Source of the DNA: Ulota crispa
Lineage: Eukaryota > Streptophyta > Bryopsida > Orthotrichales > Orthotrichaceae
Length of the DNA: 64,000 bases
Assembly (NCBI GenBank): GCA_963920765.1
Contig: OY987244.1
Coordinates: forward strand, 9,426,501-9,490,500
Direction of reading: 5' to 3'
The translations under genes were made by a program, and so were the position numbers. Position 1 is the first letter of the stretch. Each line of letters begins with the position of its first letter. Of this stretch, positions 2,535 through 63,197 are shown piece after piece. Below the pieces are notes generated by a model. It made no database searches. It was not told the DNA's origin and was given only the letters and a program-made list of their open reading frames with translations.

Positions 2535-3507
2535 CCTCTCATCGCCTAAGATCCAAACATGCCTAAATGCATCCTTGCTTTCCAAGTATTGTAAGTCTAA
2601 ATTCTAGTGGAGTATGAAAACCTCAACCGTAGAATCTTGTAGTGTGCATGTTGTAGATGATGTGGAACAAATTTAGGGTCATTTAACTACATAGATTGGA
2701 AGATTATAATGTTTTAGTCTAGAAAAAGATGCTAAAACTTTCCTAAAAACACATTTGGAGGTGAAACTAGGTTTCCAAACCTACTCAAATGAAAAATAAA
2801 TAAAATGTAAAGTGATTCAAACCAACACAAAAAACATTGGTGAAAGAAAATATCAATCAACATACTCATTTTGTTTGCAAAATTGTTTTGAAATTTAAAA
2901 AAACAGTGAAAGAAGTAGAAAAAATACACATCTATGGCTAAACTCCCTCTACTATAATGCTTCTTATTCACTCTTAGCTTCTTGGATTGATATGAAATTT
3001 TAATAACAATAACTAGACTAGTATGTGCAACTTTTCCAATAACAAATGTTGAAAATAAAGTTCCCATGAACAATTCATAAGCCACCAAAGTTTTATGTAA
3101 TGCAAAAATGTGCCAATTTTGAACTTTGAGTTGCTCCCAAACATTCTAGGAAACTTGGATTGACATTAAAAATTTACCACAATTACCAGACTTTAAAAGG
3201 AACTAAACCCAACAAATTTTATTGAAAAAAAATATTTAATGAAAAAGATACAAACCCCCAAAGTTGCAGCCATCACAATGCAGTGCGGCAAACTCAATTT
3301 GACCTTGTGAACTTTGAATGACTTGCACAAATTGAATATGTCTTAGATTGATCTCATAATTCTATCATAGAAACTAGACTAGTATGCGCAACTTTACCAA
3401 CAAGTTCTATTGAATTTGGATAATTTGCGCAAAAATTATAGCAGTTCAAATAGGTTTAATGGACTGCAAGAGGATGGAAACCATCCCCTTAGGCGATGAG
3501 GGGTTAA
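2531..3507. mobile_element. TTAA-flanked element, variant ends CC(C)CTCATCGCCTAAG
   Basis: The ends are TTAA-CCTCTCATCGCCTAAG at 2531 and CTTAGGCGATGAGGGG-TTAA at 3507, an inverted pair about 977 bp apart. The terminal sequence differs from the main CCCCTAAAGGACCA family, but TTAA is kept and the length is alike. It abuts the previous element and shares one TTAA with it. A 118-aa antisense frame inside (2732-3088) is low-complexity and not credible as a gene. Confidence 0.7.
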
Positions 3508-14779: not shown

Positions 14780-16886
14780 AAACTTGAGATTTTTACCTTG
14801 GCTCCACAATCCTGTATGTGCAAGTTATCAAAATATTAAAGACCAGCATGAGTTTTAGTGCAATATTGGAGGCACTTGTTGGTTTATATTTAGGAATTGT
14901 TTTCTTGCTTCAACTTCTGTCAAAAAGTTTAAAAGATTATAGAAACGGGCACAAAGGGAGGGAGGAAATCTTCCCAGTGAGTAGATTATCTTTATTAGAG
15001 AGTATGTAATCAATACAAGTGGTTAGCACAACAAAAATCGTCTTTCCGCTCCAGAGAAGGTATTACATATTTATCATGAACACTCCAACCCATTGCCATT
15101 CTATAACTCTGGAGAATAAGATTTACAAGAAGGCCCTTTCATTGCCAATGTAGGGTGAGTGCACAGATGTTTTATTTTGCAACAATGTTTTATATCTCAG
15201 TGTCAAATATTTTATTATTATATTAAATTGATAGCATTCTTCTAAGAATTTTGCTCAATGCTTAGATTAGCTAAGGCACATTTAACTATTGATGAAGGTA
15301 TAACTCACAACAACTATTGTCAATTTTGAAAGAATTAGCATTAATAAGCACAATATTTGAAAGATTAAATATAGTAGATACTATTTATTGGCCTTCAAAA
15401 GTTGAACAATTATTAGCAAGATTGTCAAACAAGATGTTGTTTTGGTGAGATTTATTGCATTAGAAAACACAAGATCTTTTTGCAATAAGTTAATCAAGTA
15501 CAAGGCTTAAGGATGAGCACCTGTAACCGTCAAATTAAGGGTTTTGAACATGATGATTATTAATAAATATCTGGAAAATTACAGGATCCTATTAGCAAGA
15601 GAAAAATGATGAGTTTTGATTTTTGAATGAATTATTTGGATACAACAAGAATAAGTTGTGAATTTTTAAAGAGCCGAATGCAGTTGCACCTAATACCAAA
15701 ACTAAGGTTTCATGTTCACATGTTGTACATCCTTGTAATTACATCTAGTCACTTCCACAAATTTTTCAAGATTTTAGAGATTATGGTTGTGGATACAGTG
15801 ATGGTTATGGGTGTTGCTACTTTACAAGCTAGAGTCATATAATGTTTCAAAATCCATTACTTAAAGCATCTTAGATTCTATTCTTTTCTTTTAACTCTAT
15901 GTTGTTTCCAAGGCTTGATTGCAATTTCCTTCATATCTCCTAAATCACAAGTCTTACAATGTCAAAACTTTTACACAATCTCAATATAACACTAGGAAAG
16001 GTACTAAACAAGTCTCACCTCTAGTGCTCCAAAGGTTGCCAAGAACCATGGTTTCAAAGTTGATGCTCCTTCATTGCACCAAAAAAAAAAATTTTGATAC
16101 AAAGCTACATAACAAACGTCATTCCTTTCACTTTTCTTAGATGCAACACAAAAGCTGCTTGATAGCTTGATATTCCCTTGCAACTTGCAATCTTGACTAC
16201 CAATGTTGTGTGTTTTTGCACATATCATAAATTTTTTAGCCAAGTAAGGGCTACTTCACACTACAAGTTGCTGTTGATTTTCAACCTAGGACACTTCCTA
16301 TGTTGGCCTTCTATTATTTGATTTTTTCTGAAAATGGCCTCAAGGTTGTTGCACTAGGAGTCAAAGCCAAGTTTTAAGACAACTTTTAGCATTTAAGAAA
16401 ACAAGGTCCGGTACATTTCCAATTTTTAAAATTGGATTTCCAAAAATGAGAGGCCAAATTGTGACCGGGCAATAGTTAGACTTCATTGGAACATGATTAA
16501 TTGAATGACAAAGAGTCTTTTGAGATGGTCAACACTATAAGATGAAATAAAAAGATCAATGGCTCTACTTGATCTCCTTTTTTTACTACTTTCGTTTTGA
16601 AGATTTGAAGATTTAAGATAGTGGCATAAACGTTTTAGCCTCAAGGCTTTTACTTACAAGGCAATTGACCCATTATACTCTTATTACAAGGGGTGTTTGT
16701 TGACCCATTATACTCTTATTGCAAGGGGTGCTTGTGGACATTCTCCATTTAATTTGAAATTTTAGTGGAAATGACCCCAAGTTTTCATGGTTGTGACTCC
16801 TAGTGTAAATCAGCTCTAGATGTGAAATTTGCAGGAGGGAGGTAGTGGTAGCAGGGCAGGGTGGAACAAGCGTAAGAGCATCTCCA
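14780..16886. other. unassigned AT-rich sequence
   Basis: No protein family recognised. Frames such as 15627-15842 (+) and 15919-16140 (+) are short and compositionally ordinary. A 35-bp tandem duplication is present at 16665-16734. This may be decayed transposon or intron-like sequence; nothing in it decides. Confidence 0.4.
16665..16734. repeat. 35-bp tandem duplication
   Basis: Two head-to-tail copies of TTGACCCATTATACTCTTAT followed by t(a/g)caaggggtg(t/c)ttg. They differ at two positions. Confidence 0.9.
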
Positions 16887-17119
16887 TTAATCCTTGAGCG
16901 CCTCAGGACCTCAAAATGGGGCGCTCAGTTTTGAAAAATGTCAGTGTTTGACTCTTATCCTCTTCTTAATGGTAAAGTTAAAGGATTTGTACTTTTTCAT
17001 GTACCTTTAGGCATGTGTCTACTACCACTCAAAAAAAATTCAAGCTATTTGACTCTATTTTGGTAATACTTTTATTGGACTAAGTACACACAAGTATGGC
17101 CAGGAGGCTTAGGGGTTAA
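16887..17119. mobile_element. possible 233-bp TTAA-flanked MITE
   Basis: The left end is TTAATCCTTGAGCGCCTCAGG. The right end is CCAGGAGGCTTAGGGGTTAA, an imperfect inverted match with TTAA at both edges. The size is almost identical to the 235-bp element at 9890-10124, whose ends it resembles on the left. The interiors do not align by eye, so kinship is uncertain. Confidence 0.45.
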
Positions 17120-17402
17120 TATGCACTAAAGGTCAAACTCTTGCCAAAATTAGATGATAAGTGCTTCAATCCATTCAAAATTCTTTCATGGCACCCAATC
17201 CTAGTGTGTCAAGCTATGGCTCTTCAAAAAACTATTCATTCTAAATTTAGTGAGTTTAATCTACAATTTCCCTTGGTGATAGGTCAATTTCTATTTGTGA
17301 CATATGTTTGAAGTGCAAAAGCCACCTTTTGAAGAGCAAAGGTGGAGATGAAATTTTTTGAGGACTCTTCAAAAAATAAATGTAAACTTCAAGTCATGGA
17401 GA

Positions 17403-17660
17403 ATTTTATTGGCAAAATTTTGCTTAAATCTTACCTCAAAACCTGATTGGCAATTGTCACACTACACAAATCCACTTTAAAAAATGAATGAAGTTACCAA
17501 GTCCCTCCCTTAGATAGCACAAGATTTGCCAGATTTTGGATGAAAGTTAGTAATGCTATATATTTTGTAGATGAACAAGCACTTGTTAATTCCATCCAAT
17601 TTTGTCCAATTTTCCTTACGAGCACTTGTGGGGGTGCGTGTCGCTCTACCAGCGAAACTA
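17403..17660 (-). repeat. dispersed ~250-bp repeat
   Basis: The antisense copy has 'ggcaaaattttgcttaaatc' and 'ttacctcaaaacctg' at the left, 'agattttggatgaaagttag' in the middle, and 'ttttccttacgagcacttg' then 'gtcgctctacca' at the right. Antisense frames reading through this repeat (17494-17926) should not be taken as a gene. Confidence 0.65.
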
Positions 17661-20600
17661 CAAAAGAAGCCCTGCTTTGAGTGTGTTTGGTGTAGCAAGC
17701 AACGGCAGAGATGCTCAGATGCTTTTCCGCCCGGCATAATAAAGTTGGAGCCGCACGGACGATAATAATTGTGCAAGAGCGCACTTTTGTGTACAACGAG
17801 CCTGGCATGCCCAGCAAAGCTGCAAAGATATTCAGCAGCGGAGGATTCTCTCTCAACTGCAGGATCCACGTATCTGATCACCAGAAGGCACCCCAGGTCG
17901 CCGAAGCAGAACTTCATGGAGTCCATGCGCGCTAGCAGGAACGCATGCGAGCAGGGTTATTTTCTTGTATAAGCTTATTCGAAGGTAAAGCGACACGCAC
18001 CCCAGGGATTAAGCAGGAAAGAAAAATTTGGATAGAACTGGATAGAAATTGATTTATGACGCATGCACGTTCCTCCATGAGGTCCACTTATATTAGTAAA
18101 CTTCATCCAAAATTTGACGAACCTAGTGCTTAGCAGGGGAAGAATTTGGCGATATCATCCAATTTTTCACCTTCCAATCAAAAAGCAAGAAAAATTTCCC
18201 TAAGCTTACATGCTAGCGAAGCGAAGAGACATTATGACTTATCCTTCTCAGAGATGCCCGACTGCCCGAGCGAGTGAGCAAGGGAGGGGGCTCCACCACC
18301 ATGGACGATCCAGCGCCGCTCCCACATAAGACGCCGGAGATTCTAATCTTATCAGGGGCATGCTGCAGCCGGGCTATCATAATGGGGGCCAAATCGTCGC
18401 CTTTACAGGAGCGAAAAGGTACTTTATGGCTCCAAGTGCAGGCCGGTGGGGGGCACCACGCGGCCTACTCTATCACCACTCTCGTTATGTACTGTAGCTC
18501 TTCTAGCTCACCCTTCCCTGCCAGGCCTGCCAGAGCCCAGAGCCAGGCAGGCAGCGCCAACTCGACAAGGTGTGCATGCCGAGGAATCAAAAGCAGGCGC
18601 CCCGGGGTATCTTTATTGGACGCGAATCTCGCTCCGTGCTTCGATGCTAATCCGGGATGCTGCTGCCTCCGTGACTGGGCAGTCGTCGTCGTCGTCGGCT
18701 GCCAGACCCGCCCCGCATCAAATCAAGCCGGACTATGGATTTTCAACCCACACCCACGCTGTTCACTTTCTGGACCCTTCTTTTCAAAAACTGAAAAATA
18801 CTAAAAGAAGGAAAAACCAAAACAAATCTTCGCTTTCTGTTGTGTTACAGTTTTGGAGAAAAATAAATAGCAAGAAATGGGAAGAAATAAGTTACCACCA
18901 CTTGGACGGCCGGAGTGAACTCAACTGTGTCTCCTTCACATCCATGTTTTAAATAAGATCTGCAATCAAGTAAGGGTAAGAGTAATAATTCGCCTCCTTT
19001 TTCAGCCTTTTTCACTTTCATTCTCTTTGTAGGAATCAGATGAAATCTTGGTCTTTGAACCCAAATGTGAAGTTAAAATTTCCAAATTCGATCTCTTGAT
19101 GGTAAACTTTCAAACTCTCAGAATGAATGTTTGAAGTTTGAAAAAGCAGACCCTGACCCCACTCTCCAGGAACTCGTAAAGCAGTTGACCGAGCTCCCGG
19201 CCCCGTTCATCCAGGCGGGGGGTCAGTTCATCCTGGCCCACTTGGACATCTCAACATTATTTATCCTCGGTGCTAAGTTACTGCTGCAAACTGGTTTAGC
19301 ACTTCTGTATTCACTTTCTGTTGCAGTGGTAGTAAAATAGGGGGAAAAACCCAAATCTGGACATGCACGAGGAATTCAGCAAGAATCCTCTGTACCTGAA
19401 TTGAAATAGATTCAAATCAATAGGGTAGGTTAAACAGAAAAATAGCCTTAGCTTTCAAAGTATCGTCAATCGGCTGCCTCAGGTAAGTTCTAGACCCTAG
19501 TGAGTAAGGAGTAACTGGTAATTGGAAGTGATATTTACCGTTCATGAAGAAACGCGCACACACTCACACCGAAAGCTATCGCCGTCCATCAATGCAAGCT
19601 CTGACACGCACCCAAGTGTACATTTTTTCACGTTTCGTCGACGGCCTCTTTACAGCTTAAAAGTGGTCAGAACATACCTCAATGACTGTGGTTGTTGAGA
19701 ATTTAGGGTTACCATTCCTCCTCGTTCTCGTCGACCTGAGTCACTGGGTGTCCCATACAATGAATCTCCAACTTTCAAATGCCAGCTCCATGTCAACCAC
19801 TGGTTCTCACATCATGCATGTTATCTATTACTTTGTCCTTTCTTTCTCTTTTTGCTGCAAACGAAAGGCTGCTTCATTGCTGCATGCTGAAATATCCCCT
19901 CGCAGAAGTTTTGCTCGAAATGCTTGATTTATTAACACGGTCGATCTACGTGGATTCGTCCAGCACCAGTATCTGCCAGGGGGGCCCACATTCTTCATTC
20001 AGGTAGTTGCTGGCTTTGAATGGAACTCGAATCACGAGCTTGTTGATATTAGTTAACTTGGGGCATTTCTGGGATAAATTCAAATATTGAATCCACCTTG
20101 TTTTTGCAAAATATACTGAAGTGAAGAAGCTAGTCAACTGCATCTGGCATGCCAGTTGACTGTAGTAGCGTTGTCCGTCACGACAATTGCATGTGCAAGC
20201 TAGTATAGCTAGCTACGTGCAGCCTTGCTTTGATTTTCCTACGAGGGAGGGGGAGATCTCGAAGCAGCTTTTGTTCTTTTTTAGGGTCACAACAGCAGCT
20301 TCTGGAAAGCCAATTTGAAACCCAAAGTGGATGACTAGACCGTGGATCCTTGATCCGATTATTGCAGTAAAGTAGGTGTGGATCGAATCTAGGACTTTCA
20401 AGGATCCCAATGAAGTAAGTTTAACAGGAAAAAATCAAATCCAACGATGAGCAACTGATCCGATGCTGCTGCGGCATCCAAGGGACGCTGGGGATTACAT
20501 CGATTCAGGTGGGCTAGTTCATGCGCTTTTGTGACACTTTATACTGTGATCACGTTGTGTCTAACTTTAGTAAACTTTGATCAGATGAAATAGTTTACAG

Positions 20601-20984
20601 CTTCGAAAGTTGTGAAAACGGCAGTGAGGGAATTTTCGATTTTTCTAGCACATTTTGTAGTGTTTTTAGCAAAGAAAGCTGTTTACGAAAATAGCTTACA
20701 TGTAGGAGGGTGATGAATAAAGTTATTAGCTGTAACAAGCAAATCTTGGCGCAGCAGCAGCAGCATCATCATGCGTGGCCGAGGGGAGGGCGTGACTTGC
20801 GTTTCAGTGGCGGATCTTAGTCTTGTCGCCGCAGCAGGCTTGCCTGCAACTCCTCTTCGCAACAAACCGAGCCCTTGCTCCATCGACGACGGGCTCAGGC
20901 CGGTTTAAGGGTTTGGGGTTTTAACCCCGGGGAAAACATTAGGTTTTCGAGTTTTAACCCCCAGGGACCATAGCAGGATTTTAT
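17661..20984. other. GC-richer, mostly non-repetitive island; possible host exons
   Basis: This is the only long stretch left of 53 kb that is both richer in G+C and largely free of the window's repeats. Candidate coding pieces are weak. A 167-codon frame at 18301-18804 (+) starts in a good Kozak context (CCACCATGG). A short stretch with codon-like GC bias lies at about 19140-19260 (+). An open frame at 19928-20056 (+) has a possible donor (attcag|gtagtt) near 20000. A 45-codon frame runs 20772-20909 (+). I cannot assign any function, and no two pieces can be joined with confidence. Confidence 0.3.
17975..18215 (+). repeat. dispersed ~250-bp repeat
   Basis: The sense-orientation copy starts 'gaaggtaaagcgacacgcacc' and contains 'ttcatccaaaatttgacgaa' and 'ggcgatatcatccaattttt'. 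It ends near 'aaaaatttccctaagctta'. It is moderately diverged from the others. Confidence 0.55.
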
Positions 20985-21180
20985 GTTTTCTGTCAAAAAT
21001 TTGCCTAAATCTTATCTCAATTTGTCACCGTAACATTGAAAAAATACGGTAGAAAAATGATGTAATCGCCAAATCCCTCCCCAATCCAACACCAAACTCG
21101 TCATATTCTATCCATTTTTTCCCATGTTTTCCTTACTTGTTTGCATTCTTTGGTGTGGGTTGCTCTACCCTAGTAAAATG
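20985..21180 (-). repeat. dispersed ~250-bp repeat, shortened copy
   Basis: It contains 'aaaaatttgcctaaatctta' at the left, 'gatgtaatcgccaaatccc' in the middle, and 'ttttccttacttgtttgcat' followed by 'gttgctctaccctag' at the right. It lacks some of the central 'tttcatccaaaa' blocks. Confidence 0.55.
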
Positions 21181-21514
21181 AAAAGAAAAACCCCCCTTGA
21201 CCACAGGACGATATGTTCAATTTATCACAATAAAGGTCATCCTCCATGCTGCATCATAATTGGAGAACTACAGAAACAACAAATTAGTTTTGGATGGAGC
21301 CACTGCATGAAAGTGTGCTAGAATATAACAAAATTAGATATTTGAAATGGTACTTTGGCAAATTTCTTGTAAGAAGCACATAAAGAAAATTGAGTATTTT
21401 GAAATTGGAACATTGATCACCTTGGTCAATATCAATGCATCACAAAAGTTTGCCCTAAGGTCAAATTTTGAAAATTTGAAATTCATGTATGGATGCAATT
21501 GACCCTCAATTACA

Positions 21515-52850: not shown

Positions 52851-54537
52851 ATAGAGATTGAAAATGAGTTAGAAACTTAAGGACCACTCATGTGAAGGAT
52901 GAGATACCTTTTGAAGGAGTTTTGTATATAGTGACTATATTTCCTTCACTTTGTACATCCTTTCATTTGTTAATTGCACTTGCAAGCTTTTCTATATAAT
53001 TTTTTATGTCAATGTGTGTGTTCAAGTTTTAATTAATTCTTTGCCTTTTAAAGGACTTGGGATTTCCTCCAAGGCATGAATTAGTAATGGATGCTTATTT
53101 TACTAGTACTAACATTCTAAGTTAGTTCTTTACTCTATGTCACGAGACGTGGTGTTGAAGGTCTCTCCGCATTGTGGTGCTTTGCGTGGACATTCATTGA
53201 ACGGGCGAATTTCATCCATTAGGATTTGGTGTGTGTATGTAGTGTACAAAAGCCCTTGACTTGACTCTCTTTGTCAAGTTGACTTTGTGAGTGAGTTTAG
53301 AGTTTTTAGTGATTGTCTTTGTTTGTAGGTGAAGCGTTATCATTAGTGAAGCTTTCTATTTCTCCACCATTTTGCACTTGTTGATTTTCCCTTGATGGAA
53401 TGCAAGACGCTTGACTTCTAGTGAGTTAGAACTTAATCATTTCACAAAGAAAGTGTGCTTCTAGTTGATGTTCTCATGTTTTGAGTGTTAGATATTAGTG
53501 TTAGATTTGAATTCTTTTAGTTTTTGAAATACGCCTGTGCACTTTAGTGAGTTTCGTACTTGTGAGTTGCTAGAGTGGGGAGTGACGAAGCTATACGGAG
53601 CTGTTCAAAAGCAAAGTCGGGACGTGGAAAGTCTGGGGCACAGGAATCGGGAGGAGCCAGGCTCGGCGGACAAGCACGGGAGCCGGTTAGGATTTCGTGC
53701 AGGTCAAAGGAGCAATACAAGTGCATTGTAGCGGTGGCCAACAGCAAAGCGACAAGCTGGCCAAGGCACGGCGATGGAAGGTGCAGTAACAACCGCGATA
53801 GCAAGAGTTGCGGTAGTTGGGCGACCAACAAAGCAGGGAGCAACGAGCTTTTAAGGTTTGAGAGGCGGAGCAGTCGTGAGAGACAACAGGCTGGGGTTTC
53901 ATCCCCTGTCTTGTTCACTATCATCTGTTGGAGACTAATTTGCCATTCTTCCTTCATTACCTCCTTTCATCCACTCTCCTCCTCGTGCGCAAATTCATCC
54001 ATTTTTCTTTTATCAAGATTTTCATCCCTTCCATTTCTCATCCATCACATGGATGATACTGTAATTTAGATAGAATTAAAATTATTGTGAGATAGAGAGC
54101 CTAAATTAAAGATTATTTTTGAATTCCAATTGTGGATTTGAACTCCTAGGGGGAGTATTTACCAAGTGAGAAATAAAAGTTTCAATTTCAAAGGTTTTTC
54201 AAAAATTATAAAAAAAATAAAATATTAATGTCTAAACTTTGGAGGTAGATTGTGAGGGCAATTTTACTCGGATTTGAGTGAAATTTGCTCCTATACTTGA
54301 GGATTTTCATCACTTAATCCAATTGTAGTGTTGGATTGGCAGTTTGGCTTATTATATCATCCAATTTGGCAATTTTCATTGGGGGATTTGTGTTTTGTGA
54401 ACGCCGCGCCAAAGTATTCTATTACCTCTTTAGTTTTAGACATTAGGAGAACACTATTAGTGTAATCCTTTGCTATGTAGATATTGCAACTTGGGGCTAT
54501 CCACTAGAGGCGTGTACTGGTGGCGCTGACCCTTTCA
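52851..54537 (+). other. sequence upstream of gag; possible LTR/leader of the retroelement
   Basis: G+C rises sharply at about 53560-53900. A long open frame on the plus strand (53575-54069, non-ATG start) and one on the minus strand (53544-53957) coexist and neither has a recognised domain, so I do not call a gene. If the gypsy element's 5' LTR and leader exist they should be here. I could not find a matching 3' LTR, because the 3' end of the element is missing, and no clear primer-binding site. Confidence 0.3.
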
Positions 54538-55482
54538 ATGTCCAAATTGAATAAGTGGATGGTAGATATGCTTGCCGCGCATCTCCTCTTCTGCTATCAT
54601 GGCAACGAAACTTTGGCAGAAGTTTTTGCCGAGGTAGAAGAGTTGAACAGGGATCTTGGGGTGAGGGAAGCCCTAGTCTTAGCTACAACCTTGATAGATA
54701 CTCCCAAGCCTAAGAAGCTTGCTACTGCGACTATCAGCTTGGCAGAAGCACAACCTGAGAGCGTTGTGCGCTGTTGGGCTTGTAGAGAAGCTGGCCACAC
54801 CAAAAGAGACCCAAAATGCTCAAAGAAGAAGGATGCTAGTGCAGCAATGGCTAAGCCCAAGATTGAGGCGTCTAAGTCTGAGGCACCAAAGTTTGGCAAC
54901 AAGGTTGGGGACAAGGGAAAGAAGTATGTGGTATGTTCTCACTATGGCAAATTCGGCCATAATGAGGAGATGTGCTTTATTTTGCATCTAGATAAGCACC
55001 TAGGATTTTTTGCTACCGGATCTACAACTACCGGATCAGATGAGGTGAAGACACTTCAAGCCAAAATTGCAGAGCTTAAGAAGAAGATGAGTGCAATGGA
55101 CTCTTTCAGGCAAGTGGCGGATGCACGAGCTCTAGTCAAGAGTCATGGTTCATCTTCCGCCATGAATGCCTTCTTGTATGGTGCCTCAAGGCAGGTTGTG
55201 GCAGGGATTGCTACTCGCGTTCAGACCATCGCACAGACGGTGGCACTTTCTTCGACTCCTGCCAATAATGGCGGATGTCAACGACACGTAGAGTTGCCGG
55301 ATCACATTGGGCAGTCCCAGTTACTTCTATCTTTCAGCACTGCAGATGCGACTACTTCTACAGTCACTCCTCCTCCGCCCAGTGCTTCACAGATTTCCCC
55401 CACTCAAGGGGATGCCGCACACACTTTGGCGTACAAGTTGTTGCGATTTCTTGTGTTTGTTGGAGTGGACTTCATGACATAG
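54538..55482 (+). pseudogene. Ty3/gypsy gag remnant with zinc knuckles
   Basis: Gag packages retroelement RNA into virus-like particles. From the first ATG (54538) the frame runs 314 codons to a TAG at 55480. Counting from the GTG at 54520, residues 85-100 form a knuckle of the type C-x2-C-x4-H with the last Cys six residues on instead of four. Residues 139-152 form a second knuckle, C-x2-Y-x4-H-x4-C, in which the second Cys is replaced by Tyr. A charged, heptad-like segment follows (about 175-195), then a Ser/Thr/Pro-rich tail. The capsid N-terminus is not evident. The frame is the same as that of the downstream protease, methyltransferase and RT, so this was one polyprotein. Confidence 0.8.
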
Positions 55483-56280
55483 GATTTTCAACCATCTAGT
55501 GTGTTTCATTTGGCGGGGAGTATGTTGGAGGACAAAGTGCCTATACAATCATTGGAGGTATCGTAGGTAGTGACGGCTCTAATCACCAAGGAGGATTTGT
55601 TGGCCATGCGGGCCAAATTGGAGGCAGAGGCTATTTCTGCGTTTGAGGCCAATGCCCTACCAACATCTATTATGCAGTCATCAGTAGTGGCTTATTTGTT
55701 CAACGTTGCAGCCCGTTCTACCATGGAAAGACACAACTTGTGTCCATGGGTAATACATTTAGTGAATGACGATGGAATTATGGTGGTTGGTCGTACCAAT
55801 GGCAACTCTAGACGAGCCACTCCTTTGCAAATTATGCTAGATTCCAAGCTCAACTAGTCAAGATTGGCAAGTAGCTAGCCCAAGATTTGGGTTTAGAGGC
55901 TGTTGATCTTGAGCCTTGCTTGTTCACTATTATCACATCAATTGGGGGTACGGAGAAGGTCATGGATTATACACGACATCTATTACAGTTGATGTTTGGT
56001 GTAGGATCAAGTCCATTATTCTCCCATGTATCTTTCTAGTGCACTGTAACTAGTGCCACCAATTACGACATTTTGGTAGGCCAACAAACATTATATCCAC
56101 TTGGTTTTGGCGTGGACAACTAGATAGAGGAGGCATGGATTAGGCCAGAGTGTTTTGCCAGTGATGGTAGCAAGGAGCTCATTCCTATTACCTTTGCAGC
56201 TAGCGCAGTGACCTCTACAACAAAGGCTATGTTTGGATGCAATACTTTGGCATCTGATGTCATGTAGTTCCATACTTTTG
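55483..56280 (+). pseudogene. retroelement aspartic protease remnant
   Basis: The protease would cut the gag-pol polyprotein. In the gag frame, after stops at 55480 and 55564, the reading continues to the active-site region, where Asp-Ser (55840-55845) should be followed by Gly. There one base is missing (55846-55847) and the frame shifts, so the catalytic triad is broken. Homology continues in the next frame through a 'LAQDLGLE' segment (from 55875) and on to the retropepsin C-terminal 'DILVGQQ' block (about 56068-56088). Further TAG stops lie at 56121 and 56265. Near 56275 the frame returns to that of gag. Confidence 0.75.
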
Positions 56281-57480
56281 GATGAGACATATGCATTTAT
56301 GTCAGCACTTGAGAAATCACATGAGCATGCACCGATAGAGATCCTTGTACGTCATTGCAAGGATCTGTTTCCACCATGGAAATTTTAGTTGGAGCTTACT
56401 TGTCATAGTAGAGAGATTGTGGATGCTCTTAATGCTCCTCAATCCCTTTTGGATTCTTCCACACCGTTGTTGGCTTGCACTATTCAGATGGTGCCACCAA
56501 ACAATGGCATTACCCTTGTCGAGCACTTTGTCGGCATTGGTACATGACTGGCAGCTGTGTTAGAGGCTGGGGGTAAGGTGTGGCAATACATCCACGTCAA
56601 CAATGGCTTTGCAACCAACCGTGCCACTCGTCACTACATACATCATTTGTTGGCGTTGTATTTTGAGCAGCTTCCACCTTCTACTATTCATGGATGTTTT
56701 GGCAGGTTGCCACAAGATGTCACACTTATAAGTGAGGATGATCTCTGGTGGCTAGGCCACGTGGATCTGGTGATTGCCGGATGGCCTTGCCAAGGCCATT
56801 TACAAGCGGGCAGTGGACGTGGATTAGATGATTCGCAGTCATCACTCTTTGCATATCTACTCAAGCTCATCCAGTGGTAGGTTACCCACCAATCTCTGCC
56901 ACTCGGGGACATTTTTGAGAATGTACCTCCATTGGATGATACACAAATGAAGGTGCGTGAGGTTGGTGCATACATCCATCATTTTCTTGGTCCTCCTACA
57001 TTTGTCAATGCTGTTGCGTTGGACTTAGACGCCCATTGGCCACAATGGATTTGGACCAACTTGGCCTCTTTGGCAGTACGCACCTTTGCACTAGCTCAAG
57101 TGCAACGACCCACTTATCGTGAGGTCGATGACATTTTTAATGATCATCATGTTTCTACAAAGGTCACCAAAGATGATGAGCCGCCATTAGCCTTGATGAA
57201 CCGCGGGGGTTTTCTTTAGAGAACATTGCCCACATTGATGTCTTACCCAGGATTCTTTGCTTTTTGATCAAACGGTCCAGGTATGGTTTGAGATAGTACT
57301 TCCCACATTTATAACGAGCCTTCAGCCAACAAGCGAGAGCGGGCAATGGGCTTTTTGACTGGTACCACCGTCACACCAGGTCTTTCTGAGGGTCAGCGCC
57401 ATTTCTTGTTGGGTTAGGCTATTGACCTTGACACCCTCGTTTGGGTTTCTGGCCTCTGCTTTGCCATTCAGCGTCATCAG
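56281..57480 (+). pseudogene. C5 DNA cytosine methyltransferase domain inside the gypsy polyprotein
   Basis: Enzymes of this fold transfer a methyl group from S-adenosylmethionine to cytosine C5. The conserved motifs appear in order in one frame, the frame of the RT downstream. Motif I: F-V-G-I-G-T at 56527-56544, where the following Gly is replaced by a TGA stop. Motif IV: A-G-W-P-C-Q-G-H with catalytic Cys at 56788-56790, then A-G-S-G-R-G-L-D-D. Motif VI: F-E-N-V at 56914-56925. A motif VIII-like W-I-W-T-N lies at 57046-57060. A motif IX-like R-E-R-A-M-G-F lies at 57334-57354. A motif X-like L-L-G lies at 57406-57414. The region VIII-IX would be the target-recognition part. Size is about 325 residues, a compact catalytic domain without regulatory modules. 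In-frame stops (56386, 56545, 56878, 57217, 57265, 57289, 57415) make it inactive. It lies between protease and RT, so it is retroelement cargo and not a host gene. Confidence 0.85.
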
Positions 57481-58868
57481 CGTAACCATCCACGTGTGTC
57501 GGAGGCAAACTTGGATGGTCAGGGGGCAGCAGTGCCACATTCCATCGAGATTGAGGAGGCGGAGCTACTTTTTCATTTGGAGAGGTTTGCGTCAGAGGAG
57601 CTTTGAGCTTAGTATGTCTTTGTTGTTTTTGCCGAGGATTTCAAACGAGAGGAAGCCCAAGACTTATTTTTGTGAGTCTATCATCTCGATATGGAGTTTT
57701 TTATGGATTCCATTAGTGAAGAGTCTGGGGGCATGAGCACCCTCTCTGCTACCAAGTAGCAATCACCGGCTGTGCCGGTATGCAGTGGTTTTCTAGCGAT
57801 GGAGAATGAGACCACATAGTTTGATGATTGGATTTTGGATTTAGGGCCACATCTAACCAATGCCAAAGCACAAAGGGTATAAGCATTTATACATTCGTAT
57901 CTTAGCTGTTTTGTCTTTAGCCTCCATGGTTTGGAAGGCTACAAGGGCAAACTGATTCACATTTAGTTGGAGGATGACCACTCTATCTTCCGACGACCGT
58001 ACAAACTCAATCTTTCATAAAAAGCTGGGGTTCAGACTCAATGTCAAGAGTTGTTGGCCGCTAGCTTGATTGAGCTCTCCAACAGCGAGTATGCTTGTAA
58101 CACGGTTATGCCTTTGAAGAAGGATATCTTTGGCAACTAGACAGAGAATTGGATGTGTGGGGATTATTGACTGGTCAATTGCGAGACTAAATTGGACCGG
58201 TACCCCATGCCCACGCCGGAGGAGTTGTTTGATGCGGTGGGACATGTTAGAGTATTTAGTATTGTAGATTTGTGATCTAGTTATCACCAGTTACCGTTGA
58301 TGGTGGATGACCAGGAGAAGACGGCATTCTGGGGAATTGATCAGGATGGAAGAGATCAGTTTTATCATTGGAAGTTTCTCCCATTTGAACTCAAGAACAC
58401 ACCGGCCAAATTTTAGAGGGTGATGGACTTGGCGTTGACCTATCTTCCATTTGTTTGTTGTTACATTGATGATGTTAGCATCTTTAGTAGCAACCCTGAG
58501 GAGCGTGTGAAGCATCTTGTGACGATGTTTGACAAGTTACATTAGTGGAGATTGCGCTTGCACCATGGCAAGTGCAAGTTCTTCCACAAGTGATTACCAT
58601 ATTTGGGCACATGATTGTCCCAGGAGGTCTTGGTGTACAGCAGGCCAAGGTGGATGCATTGCAGAAGATTCCAACCCCAACCGACGTGTCGCGGCTTTGA
58701 GCTTTTCTTGACTTAGTGAATTACTATTGCCGGTTTGTCAAGAACTTTAGTTTGATTGCTAAGCCGTTGACTATTCTCACAGGGAAGAATCAACCATGGA
58801 CATGGAGACCAGAGCAACAACAAGCTATTACTGTATTGAAGCTCAAGCTTGGTTCAGCACCTGTATTT
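57481..58868 (+). pseudogene. Ty3/gypsy reverse transcriptase and start of RNase H
   Basis: This part of pol copies element RNA into DNA. A linker (57481-57900) has several stops. From about 57900 the typical gypsy sequence is readable: a 'RRPYKL' block (57999-58016), 'DRYPMP' leading into the palm, the first catalytic Asp in F-S-I-V-D-L (58258-58272), T-A-F-W, F-L-P-F, and the Y-I-D-D catalytic box at 58462-58473. Then comes 'HHGKCKFF' at 58561-58584. Stops lie at 58138, 58168, 58273, 58414 and 58543. A one-base frameshift sits near 58609. The connection domain ('NYYCRFVKNF' from about 58717) continues to Ala-Pro-Val just before 58869, where a 3.4-kb insertion interrupts RNase H. Confidence 0.92.
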
Positions 58869-61800
58869 TGTGAGTATTCAAACCTCCCCCTCGTGAAGTA
58901 AGCACAAGCACAACCAGGTTCTAACAAAACTGGAAAATGAGGTATAACAGCAAGAGGGTGGGTTGGGTTGTAGATTTCCAACTAAAGATGCCTTCCAAGC
59001 AATGGATTTTTACTAACAAGCCTACAACATACAATGATGAGCAAAGAAGAGGACAACCTACTTAGTATATCACATGTGAGGTTTTGTGGTTAATTGAAAT
59101 GGGAACGTAAGTAATCATACCTCGTCATGGGGGTTCACATACCCTACGTCTTGATTGTGAATGGCCTCCATCTTTTTGTGATATGGTGGTGCTGGATCAG
59201 CATATGATGATTCTACTCTAGGGACAAATAATCACAACACTCTAGGGGGTTGGTGACTCAACCTATACTACTGGGCCGGTTTAGGATATTGCCTTGTGAT
59301 GAATAATCACAACATAAACTGGCTCCTATACTTGAGGATCAAAGATTATCATAATCCCTTGGTATTCAAGATTCAACGATTATCCAAATCCCTTGGTGAG
59401 TTGTGGATGTATCCCAAATGCTAGAGGCTATCTCCTTTCCTAGCCACTTAATGGAAATATGACGCTTTGTGGTTCTACGTGCTCCCTATGATGTATCCTT
59501 AGTTTAAACAAAATGAGGATCTCCCTGTAGTTTGGAACAATTGTTAAATTACCATGCCAAGCCAAAGAGTGGGTAAGGGCATTTACGAGCTTCACAAAAA
59601 TCTTTTTCCAAAGTAAAAAAATGCCTTGAGGTGTAAGGCCGAACCTGCTGGCCAGTAGGAGGGCGGAGCTTGAGGCTGGGGTGGGGCCGAGAACCAGAGG
59701 CCAAGGTCCGGGTATGAGACGAGGCTGGGTACAAGACAGAGCCGGGGCTGATGCAAGGCCAGGTGCCGCTGGCCGCATGAGGGGGTGAGCGGCTGCTGTG
59801 AGAACTTGGCTGTCGTGATCAAGGACTCGGCCATAGAATTTTGAGAGCTAGCTGCTGTGCTCGGAGCTGAGGCTACGAGAATTTCTGAGAGCTCAAGCTA
59901 TTGTAATTGGAATTGAGGCTACAAGAATTTTTGAGAGCTAGGTTGTTGTGATTGAGGACTAAATTGTAGAATTCTAAGAGCTAGCTATTGGAGCTGAGGC
60001 TACGGGAATTTTTGAAAGCTAGGCTGCCGTGATTGAGAACTCGCTGTAGAATTCTGAGGGCTAACTGTTGTGCTCGAGGAGTTGGGCTACAAGAATTCTA
60101 AGAGCTCAAGCTACTGGGATTGAACTGAGGCTACGGGAATATATATGAGAGCTGGCTGCCGTGATTGAGCTAGGCTATAGGATTCTGAGAGCTAGCTGCT
60201 ATGAGTGAGGGTGAGGGCGGAGTCTAGGCGGTAGGAATGCCAAGGGTCAAAATGCTGTGATTGAGCTAGGCTATGGGGATTTTGAGAGCCAGGTATTGTG
60301 ATTGAGTTGAGGCTACAAGAATTTCTGAGAGCTAGGCTAGGGAAAGTTCTAAGAGCTCAAGCTGCGGTAATTGAGCTAGGCTGTGGAGTTTCTGAGAACC
60401 AGCTGTTGTGATTGAGCTGAGGCTATGGAAAATTCTAAGAGCTCAAGCTGTTGTGATTGAGCTAGGCTGTGAGAATGCCAAGGGTCAGGTTGTCGGGAAA
60501 GTCTTTGAGAGCTAAGGCTGATGTGATCGGAGCTGAGGCCGTGGGAACTCTGAGAGCCAAGTGATTGTGAGAATGCTAAGGGTCAAGCGGCCATAGGAAC
60601 TCTGAGAACCAAGGCTGTGGGAGCGGGTCGGCTACAAGAGCCAAGTGGCCGTAAGGACTAAGCTGATGTGAGGACTGGCTGTTTGGTGCTGAAGAGGAGG
60701 CAGGGTCAGTAGCTGAAAGACTCTAATAGCGAGGCAAGGCCTCAAGCTAAAGTAGTCAGTGAGCTAGGTGACTTCTCAGAGACCTGCTTAGGGAATCAAG
60801 AGAGCTGACCAATTGAGGTTGAGCTGAAAGGATTCCCACTGAGCTGCTAGGAGGGCTTGTTCTGGTACTGGGGCTTTGATAGTAATTGGTAAGCTATGGC
60901 TTAGGTAAGGGCTCCTACTCTAACTATGGCTCTTTCTAACCAACTAATAACTTGCATGTAACTAGGACTTCTAAGAAGTGTGGAAGAGCGGCATTGCCAA
61001 TCGTAATCTAACTTCCTATGGGTTAATACGACCAATGCAAGGGAGGGGGTTTGTTCTACTAAGTGCAAGAGAGAGGTCTTCCAAGGCAAGGTACAAGAGG
61101 TCTAAGGGCTTGGCAAGACACAAATGGTGAGTGACAAGGGATGGGCCCAAATGATGGCAAAGTGATGATGGAAAAGAGTACAAGTGACAAGAGGCCAAGA
61201 ACTATGATGAAAGTGATCTAAACATGGGAAAGTGATGGTGAGGGAGGAGGTGGGCCTCCCTTTATACATTTGGAGGAGGACACCTCGGCCCTCTATCCAG
61301 GGGAACCATAGATCCCTTGAAATCTACCTAAATTCTAAGAAAAACTCAAAATGGATGAAATCTGGATGAATTTGCCATAACTTTTGGAGCATATCTCCAA
61401 ACAATAAAAAAATGGTGGCATTAAATTCCTTGGATCCAAAATAGCCGGTTTTGATTGTTCACACTTCCAATTCCGAGCTATAAGGCGTCAGGAACTTGAA
61501 TGAAGGGTTAGGGGTGGATGGATGAAAAACATAGAATTGGGAATTCATCTAAAATTCAGAAATTGACTTTCCGAGGTCTTCCAACGTTGTCGGGGGAGCT
61601 GGGAAACATTCCTTGCTTCTGCCAATTGGGCTCCAAATGGATGATGTCTTGAAATTGGATGTCGCGCGCTTTCTTGAAATAAGCTGGATGTGGTCGTTTG
61701 AGGCTTTCCAGCTATCAAAACAACTTGAAACTTAGGGGATTGTCTTAAATTGTTGAGAAACTCTTCCATGAATTTTCTTGGCATTTTACTGCCGTTTTTC

Positions 61801-62246
61801 AATCTCCTTTGACGGGGGTGACTAGTAGTCTAGCATGGTTGACTGCTTGGAATCACGCTCTTTAAAAAGCGGAAAGTCTTGGGAGTCTAGGATACAGATG
61901 CATCAAATTGATAATGTGATGTGAACTAGGTGGGGTGGCCCTTGGCCATGGCATAACTAATCTACTCCTAAACTAATCCTCTCTAATTAGGAAGGTGGGG
62001 ACTTTTGGAGGGGATCCCAAGCCCCTAGTATGTTTGTCGCTCAAACTAACTAAAAGCTACTAATTCTCACTAAATCACTATTAATGATTTACCAAATGGA
62101 GTAAGGTAAATGGCGTATTGCTAACCATTTGGTCTAACTAATCTAAATCAACATAAATGGCTATTCCACTTACATTAATGTACTTTCAAAGCTAAATAAA
62201 ACGAAAAATAAATTCAAGACTTTTGGTGCTAAATCTAGGACTTACA
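58869..62246. mobile_element. 3378-bp insertion in RNase H, probable solo LTR
   Basis: The left terminus is TGTGAG and the right terminus is CTTACA, a TG...CA pair with short inverted ends as in LTRs. Flanks are TATTT (58864-58868) and TACTT (62247-62251), a 5-bp duplication with one later change. With one TACTT kept, the RNase H reading frame is continuous across the site (codons for V-L-Q-R-P-D). I found no internal pair of long direct repeats and no coding domains, so a single LTR left by recombination is the simplest reading. It would be unusually long. A TATA-like tttatac sits at 61260 and a purine-rich patch at about 61990-62015. An unclassified non-autonomous element remains possible. 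Confidence 0.75.
59820..60720. repeat. degenerate minisatellite, period about 40-50 bp
   Basis: The words 'gagagct(a)', 'tgtgattgag', 'gctgaggcta' and 'gaat(t/g)' recur in the same order more than a dozen times with many small changes. The preceding 59640-59780 is GC-rich with its own 'gaggctggg'-type repeats. All of it lies within the solo-LTR candidate. Confidence 0.8.
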
Positions 62247-62734
62247 TACTTCAACGTCCAGATGCTACGCAATTTTTCTAGTTGCGCACAGATTGGAGTG
62301 CTGTAGGACTGGGAGCTGAGTTGAAACAGAAAGATGAGGAAGGGCGTGAGTATGTTGTGGCTTTTGCTTCTAGAAGTAACAGCAACGCGGAATCCAATTA
62401 TTTCTCTTATGAGGGAGAGGCTTTGGTGGCAATTTTGGCCATTGCGCACTTTTGGCCTTACTTGTATGGGCAACGATTCACTTTAGTGGCTGACCATTAG
62501 CCTCTGAAGTGACTCATGGAATCTGACAAGCTTACAAGCAAGCTTGTCAGGTGGGCTTTGTTGCTCCAAGACTATGACTTTGACATTGTACACCAAGTTG
62601 GCATCACGAACTTGGATGCAGATGGTCTTTCTTGCAATCCAAGTCCTTCAGAGGAAGATTTGACTGGTGTTAGGTGGCATGCAAACTGTGACAGGGAGTC
62701 AGTTCCGGGGTGACATGCAGCTACCTACTTCACT
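62247..62734 (+). pseudogene. Ty3/gypsy RNase H, 3' part
   Basis: The element pol resumes after the insertion. RNase H removes RNA from the RNA-DNA hybrid. The acidic residues are visible: Asp in R-T-D-W (about 62294-62305), Glu in Y-E-G-E, Asp in V-A-D-H (about 62489-62497), and Asp in N-L-D-A-D-G-L-S (about 62612-62635). Also present are 'FASRSN' and 'FWPYLYG' blocks typical of gypsy elements. Stops replace Gln (62498, TAG) and Trp (62510, TGA), with another TAG at 62279. Confidence 0.88.
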
Positions 62735-63197
62735 TTGATGTCTGAATCAACGTCTTCGCTGCCATACCAAGCAGCCGATGAGGAGCCAGACAAGGCTCAA
62801 GTTGTTAGCAATGTGTGGGAAGATATACTAATTTTGTACAAGCTACAACATGGGGCACTTCCAAAAGCTCTTTCAAATATACAGCGGGATCGAGTTGGAC
62901 ACTGGGTGGCAAAGTTCCGTTGGGAGAACGGCCTTCTATTTTGGTTGTGGCCAAATGGGACTAGGCGCATAGTTCCTTGGCCAGATCAGAGGGCTTTATC
63001 GGTACAATAGTACACAAAGACTTTGGGCATTTTGGTGTGCGACGGACTCATTCCATGTTGCGCGGCTAGTATTGGTGGACCGGCATATATCAATAGGTCG
63101 CCACATATGTTTCACAATGTGAAATGTGTGATTGGCTTAGATCCAGCTTCTACACTCTGTCACCGCAGTTACACCCTTTATCCATCATGGGGTTGGG
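62735..63197 (+). pseudogene. Ty3/gypsy integrase N-terminal zinc finger, truncated
   Basis: A linker frame (62735-63010) in the RNase H frame ends in a frameshift at about 63005. The next frame shows a perfect integrase zinc finger, H-x4-H-x29-C-x2-C: His at 63013 and 63028, Cys at 63118 and 63127. It contains 'YWWTGIYQ', with stops on either side. The reading then stops at 'GLG' (to 63197). The catalytic D,D,E core and chromodomain, if any, are absent because another sequence begins at 63198. Confidence 0.85.

Follow-up and report, generated by a model that had tools for sequence, protein, structure and literature searches.

The window analysed here, a 64-kb stretch of the Ulota crispa genome (C3:9426501-9490500), contains a broken copy of a Ty3/gypsy retrotransposon in which a cytosine methyltransferase (MTase) domain lies between the protease (PR) and the reverse transcriptase (RT), with RNase H (RH) and the zinc finger of the integrase (INT) following (Table 1). 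The preliminary description, made from the letters of the window, had proposed this order, and alignment to an open-frame relative, L007, bears it out. The start of gag, about 1.1 kb of element, is lost after the leader remnant, and a search for the gag N-terminus gave no significant match; in the gag that remains, zf-CCHC_6 is matched weakly (E 0.011, under the Pfam cut-off). At its other end the element stops at the integrase H2C2 region, such that the integrase core and the PHD finger carried by its relatives are missing there.

Table 1. Remains of the retrotransposon in the window (positions are those of the window; L-numbers denote related loci).
Feature	Position	Strand	Basis
5' LTR, ~300 bp, decayed	53136..53468	+	79% identity with the L035 5' LTR; part 76% with L007
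Leader remnant preceding gag	54419..54523	+	70% match to L007 8217-8323
Remaining gag, CCHC-like zinc knuckles	54538..55671	+	Colinear with L007 from 276
Aspartic protease, broken	55744..56199	+	Alignment to L007 1473-1929
DNMT3-type cytosine MTase domain, six in-frame stops	56464..57492	+	PF00145 5.3e-7; 63 relatives
ORF1/ORF2 junction, UAG then CAAUCA (CARYYA), candidate leaky stop	57757..57765	+	Common to L007
RT (YIDD), broken	57940..58748	+	Alignment to L007 3672-4481
3.4-kb insert, foreign to the element	58865..62254	.	Absent in L007, flanks 7 bases apart there
RNase H	62255..62641	+	Alignment to L007; RT_RNaseH 5.1e-18 for the open piece 62282-62497
Integrase H2C2 region	62981..63192	+	Alignment to L007 up to 5543

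Aligned to L007, the window frame carries 33 stops, only one of which, at 57757, is common to both, as well as frameshifts that lie before the MTase, where RT ends and within the integrase. From 56258 to 58608 there are zero indels relative to L007, which places MTase and RT in one frame. With six stops in the MTase frame, these frameshifts, and an insert splitting RT from RNase H, the copy is dead, as had been said of it, and makes nothing. The insert has no Pfam domain in six frames and no 7-mer common to its two ends; imperfect 43-46-bp repeats lie within it around 59826-60613. L040, a copy of a divergent subfamily, likewise carries about 2.5 kb of additional sequence separating RT from RNase H. 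Elsewhere, no Rfam match and no tRNA was found within the 64-kb window and no Pfam match in window 16500-21400, and a plant initiator-Met primer-binding pattern occurs in neither the window nor L007.

L007 came from a scan of GTDB contigs that gave five loci: four Streptomyces MTase loci and this one, a contig of 9285 bp assigned to a cyanobacterial MAG (AVDCRST_MAG81). Since the contig holds an LTR-type element, its 'cyanobacterium' label is probably contamination; P0005, a related protein named as belonging to a Candidatus Obscuribacterales MAG, is a probable case of contamination too. The contig ends overlap by 127 bases, as if a repeat had been closed on itself in assembly. In L007, gag, PR and MTase form one open frame that is closed by a stop at 3489; RT, RNase H, integrase and PHD follow as a second open stretch in phase with the first (Pfam: RVT_1 4.3e-31, H2C2 9.6e-18; Asp_protease_2 reaches E 7.8e-4, under its cut-off). 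Window and L007 are colinear over 4.3 kb (76% for window 54538-58864 against L007 276-4597), and window 62255-63192 matches L007 4605-5543 at 82%. Since this open-frame relative has the stop at 57757 too, that stop is a normal part of the element.

The same element recurs across the 274.8-Mb assembly (157 contigs). PF00145 gave 46 matches there, host genes among them; a DRM2-like exon scored 1.7e-56 and marks the host as a streptophyte, DRM being described as restricted to streptophytes (PMC12344493). The MTase of P0003, with 101 of 159 candidates scored, gave 103 matches at about 89 places after neighbours were merged by eye, and the sole stop-free match is a 101-residue piece whose copy is broken elsewhere. 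The expectation that intact relatives might exist in the same genome is thus not supported by these 103 matches, all but one of which bear stops; open-frame relatives do occur in other sources, namely L007 and environmental proteins. Twelve further copies were fetched as 10-kb stretches, and in eight of them the order gag-PR-MTase-RT-RH-INT-PHD is complete. Of the other four, L029 retains gag and protease in part, with ~3.5 kb between them, L030 lacks integrase and PHD within the fetched stretch, L032 has MTase and RT in part only, and L040 has the gap of about 2.5 kb described above. The Ty3/gypsy order PR-RT-RNase H-integrase is therefore seen whole in L007 and 8/12 copies, while the window copy shows it as far as the integrase H2C2 region. 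LTR pairs, present in five of the twelve, are 84-92% identical over 253-299 bp, and these insertions are thus not recent. Two pairs of MTase matches in this genome (G000 C3:32753160 and 32773881; C4:9402334 and 9413279) lie 10-20 kb apart in opposite orientation with identical scores and junctions, and may be inverted duplications or assembly artefacts.

That the MTase is a host gene, or a retrocopy of one, with a retroelement merely inserted alongside has next to no probability: we found no support for it, and it is refuted by the 4.3-kb colinearity with L007, by the shared order in 8/12 genomic copies, and by relatives carrying MTase and RT in a single chain. The proposal that a Ty3/gypsy element captured a C5 MTase is well supported.

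Within the MTase, the blocks that we take to be motifs I (HFVGIGT), IV (GWPCQG), VI (FENVPP), VIII (VIII-like, AHWPQWIW) and IX/X (IX/X-like, RAMGF ... LLG.AIDL) follow one another in one frame, which, given the indel-free alignment above, agrees with the claim that they lie in order in the frame of RT; PF00145, suggested as a check on the translated interval, is matched above threshold (29.8 bits versus a cut-off of 22). Among 2136 candidates, 63 MTase relatives were found at E<=0.001, the closest of which share 70-71% identity with the query over 95-100% of its length, so the match is no chance result. Motif order from I to X is the usual one in the window and its relatives, with no DRM-style rearrangement. 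Profile comparison favours DNMT3 (3.8e-18, DNMT3A best) over the RNA enzyme DNMT2 (about 3e-4), a fold comparison of P0005 also ranks DNMT3A best, and among C5 MTases the catalytic domain is thus nearest to DNMT3. Motif IV reads Pro-Cys-Gln in the window and relatives, unlike the Pro-Cys-Asn of animal DNMT3 (DNMT3A rows), so that the label 'DNMT3-type' rests on overall likeness. A bacterial or phage source was considered and rejected: six loci on viral contigs and the four Streptomyces loci on genome contigs match over short segments only, at 31-53%, and the four such bacterial or viral loci placed in the MTase tree fall far outside. A plasmid search returned six records, each at <60% identity.

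The conservation of the motifs is what would be expected of a working enzyme. Across 23 relatives (alignment A3) the Pro-Cys-Gln of motif IV is invariant and the Glu-Asn-Val of motif VI nearly so; one relative in the 18 rows of a second alignment (A1) lacks the motif IV cysteine. Such conservation makes it quite improbable that the MTase is a catalytically idle domain that binds nucleic acid or helps to assemble the particle, after the manner of the idle animal DNMT3L, even though its position at the end of the Gag frame would suit a structural part and the nearest enzyme to have been tested, the algal KnitGypsy-Dnmt3, showed no activity in yeast (PMC5890265). Alternatively, the enzyme might act elsewhere – on host DNA at large, on element or host RNA, or on invading viral DNA – as RNA has been proposed as a target of LINE enzymes (PMC5890265) and defence against DNA viruses as a role of transposon methylases (PMC6338049); this seems unlikely, as the profile result above favours DNMT3 over the RNA enzyme.

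The MTase is under purifying selection. Between window and L007, dN/dS is 0.227 for the MTase (bootstrap 0.165-0.299), the other values being 0.247 for RT, 0.130 for the protease, 0.259 for gag, 0.178 for RNase H plus the integrase zinc finger and, for the linker that closes ORF1, 0.352 (0.194-0.618). Nine close copies, including the window, give 0.17-0.26 for MTase and 0.15-0.25 for RT against L007. With dS high or saturated, the ratios of the four divergent copies carry no weight. These ratios include decay after the death of the copies, so that past constraint was, if anything, stronger. CG sites were compared as well: where L007 has C in CG the window has T/A at 181/562 positions, against 45/276 in reverse, and CpG observed/expected in this comparison is 0.49 for the window versus 0.78 for L007. 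This pattern fits decay of methylated DNA but also a low-CpG host (0.39 for window 1-53000), and so is no proof.

The stop between ORF1 and ORF2 lies in a conserved context, AAG TAG CAATCA in both L007 and the window, and in L007 the frames on its two sides are in phase. The junction codon is a stop in 13/13 copies (nine found via a junction-spanning probe, four via PF00145 alone), the next commonest shared stop position being found in 6/13. In a larger set of 28 copies (30 loci minus two duplicates, window included), which are related by descent and hence are not independent trials, 24 show a stop followed by CARYYA no more than 20 nt from the junction (22 UAG, 2 UAA), as does L007: TAG CAATCA and TAG CAACCA occur nine times each, and TAA CAACCA, TAG CAATTA and TAG CAACTA twice each. 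Two of the remaining four keep the hexamer but not the stop, one reads TAG CAATTG and one is unrecognizable. Elsewhere the motif occurs at 8 per 112,900 other positions, with 0.003 expected per stretch. In TMV, readthrough is reported to require CAR YYA behind the UAG (PMC2754532), and we regard UAG CARYYA here as a candidate TMV-type leaky stop, dividing gag-PR-MTase from RT-RH-INT-PHD. A leaky stop in this position would mean that the MTase is made with Gag, and RT and integrase less often. In several ORF1 relatives, e.g. Marchantia Mp_4g09160, the chain terminates shortly beyond the MTase; in P0114 no stop separates MTase from RT, the two forming a single open chain.

The motif could instead be simply inherited and no recoding signal, with ORF2 expressed via splicing, reinitiation or a subgenomic RNA. 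The copies do share ancestry, and judged on identity alone the junction ranks high without being unique (97/5031 30-nt windows equal or better it); moreover, a Marchantia chain (P0088) that joins MTase to RT is explicable by a predicted splice, and transcript-derived P0109 is a free-standing ORF2-like protein. However, the motif is kept in two subfamilies, the ORF1 of divergent copies being only ~32-51% like that of L007, while its YY letters vary within the consensus and alter the amino acid; with the TMV requirement also against it, we rate inheritance without recoding as improbable.

The second unusual part of the element, missing from the window, is a PHD finger at residues 990-1034 of L007 ORF2 (Pfam 4.3e-10). 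Its nearest solved chains include CHD4, PHF12 and UHRF1, whose PHD fingers are readers of the unmodified H3 tail. Chromoviruses, which are gypsy elements with an integrase chromodomain, similarly have a C-terminal integrase domain that could read chromatin; here a PHD finger takes the place of the chromodomain, which Pfam did not find in L007 ORF2.

Why should a transposon carry the type of enzyme that silences transposons? The reading that we think probable is that the window holds a dead copy of an element with two reading frames, ORF1 for Gag, protease and a DNMT3-type MTase and ORF2, beyond a leaky UAG, for RT, RNase H, integrase and PHD finger, and that the target of the MTase is cDNA or a new insert of the element itself. 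The enzyme would be made at Gag level and would enter the particle; a conserved stop of leaky type ties it to Gag, and this suggests that it acts in the particle or on cDNA. Its likeliest role may then be to methylate the element's own cDNA or fresh insert, so that a new copy would arrive already marked, while the PHD finger might aid the integrase in target choice by reading histone H3. Methylation by the MTase of its own element copies is plausible, and CG would be the likeliest target by analogy with tested retrotransposon DNMT3s, two of which, from DIRS-type elements, methylate CG in yeast (PMC5890265). Elements without a DNMT are reported to transpose too in such hosts (PMC5890265).

A DNMT3 domain in gypsy Pol is already known from KnitGypsy-Dnmt3 of the charophyte Klebsormidium nitens (de Mendoza et al. 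2018; PMC5890265), work that PMC12344493 cites for retrotransposon DNMT3s. The preliminary description had this case right, but not that of dinoflagellates, whose MTase carriers are LINE and DIRS elements, not copia (PMC5890265). Like the present element, KnitGypsy-Dnmt3 is an LTR gypsy element whose Pol region includes a DNMT3-type domain under purifying selection; its lack of methylation in yeast was called inconclusive by its authors (PMC5890265). By description it has a DIRS-like repeat structure, whereas the present element has ordinary LTR pairs, land-plant and chlorophyte relatives, an MTase closing the Gag frame, a leaky-type stop and an integrase PHD finger. SymbioDIRS-Dnmt3 and SymbioLINE-Dnmt of Symbiodinium are likewise retrotransposons with cytosine MTases, but are DIRS and LINE elements described as unrelated acquisitions (PMC5890265). 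For the stop, the UAG CARYYA context is that of TMV (PMC2754532), and stop suppression in a plant retroelement has a precedent in SIRE1 (cited in PMC2829016), where it yields an envelope-like protein, the stop here falling after gag-PR-MTase and before RT. The main text of PMC5890265 names no PHD, readthrough, Marchantia or liverworts, and passages of PMC6453930, PMC10538959 and PMC9033089 have nothing that bears on the matter. Among the titles listed in our literature search, which covered mainly openly accessible papers without their supplements, none deals with gypsy elements of land plants or chlorophytes that bear a DNMT, with a gypsy integrase that bears a PHD finger, or with a leaky stop following an MTase; this is weak evidence of absence.

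What is new here is the reach into land plants, from which (tracheophytes, for example) transposon methylases have been described as absent (PMC6338049), together with an ORF1 ending in an MTase before a leaky-type stop, a PHD-ended integrase, relatives in Marchantia, Calypogeia and volvocine algae, and a second MTase position. The family is widespread. We scanned 223 listed relatives, all found by likeness to the element, so that the counts are not frequencies (one of the searches listed 120 of 330 matches). An MTase match is present in 151 and absent from the chain of 72. MTase then RT or RNase H occurs in one chain in 10, (gag-)PR-MTase chains number 35 more, 26 have the MTase between RNase H and integrase, 23 MTase-INT-PHD pieces would fit that second placement, and 57 have the MTase alone or in uninformative combinations. 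Named hosts among the matches listed include Marchantia polymorpha, with 11 rows, and Calypogeia fissa, and one record bears the label Mesvir1, which we take to be Mesostigma; Volvox reticuliferus and Tetrabaena socialis have MTase-INT-PHD, Haematococcus lacustris has INT-PHD without an MTase match in the chain, and no row is named Klebsormidium. Given relatives in liverworts, green algae and environmental samples, the fusion appears to be an old, maintained part of the element.

It is possible, but only tentatively suggested, that these elements form one Ty3/gypsy lineage across Viridiplantae, with a DNMT3-type writer made at Gag level ahead of a conserved leaky stop and a PHD reader on the integrase, new copies being methylated before or during insertion and so arriving pre-silenced; the MTase would lie before RT in streptophytes and between RNase H and integrase in chlorophytes, having been gained early and later moved, or else gained twice, and the pairing of reader and writer would echo animal DNMT3 itself. 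In the MTase tree (83 rows, bacterial outgroups only) the two positions part with one change, the A branch having a support of 10 and the B branch one of 89. In the integrase tree the four MTase-before-RT rows need four changes, and its main split has a support of 19, so that it neither confirms nor denies the split in the MTase tree. The few named rows and the weakly supported tree are why we hold the lineage-wide reading so loosely.

The reports cited here rest on one charophyte and on dinoflagellates, and the presence of the family in Marchantia polymorpha, a tractable model in which its members are annotated as hypothetical proteins, makes the question of why a transposon carries such an enzyme testable there. 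In one EukProt gene model, P0061, the MTase is joined directly to the PHD finger, which may reflect a predicted splice over the integrase or another arrangement.
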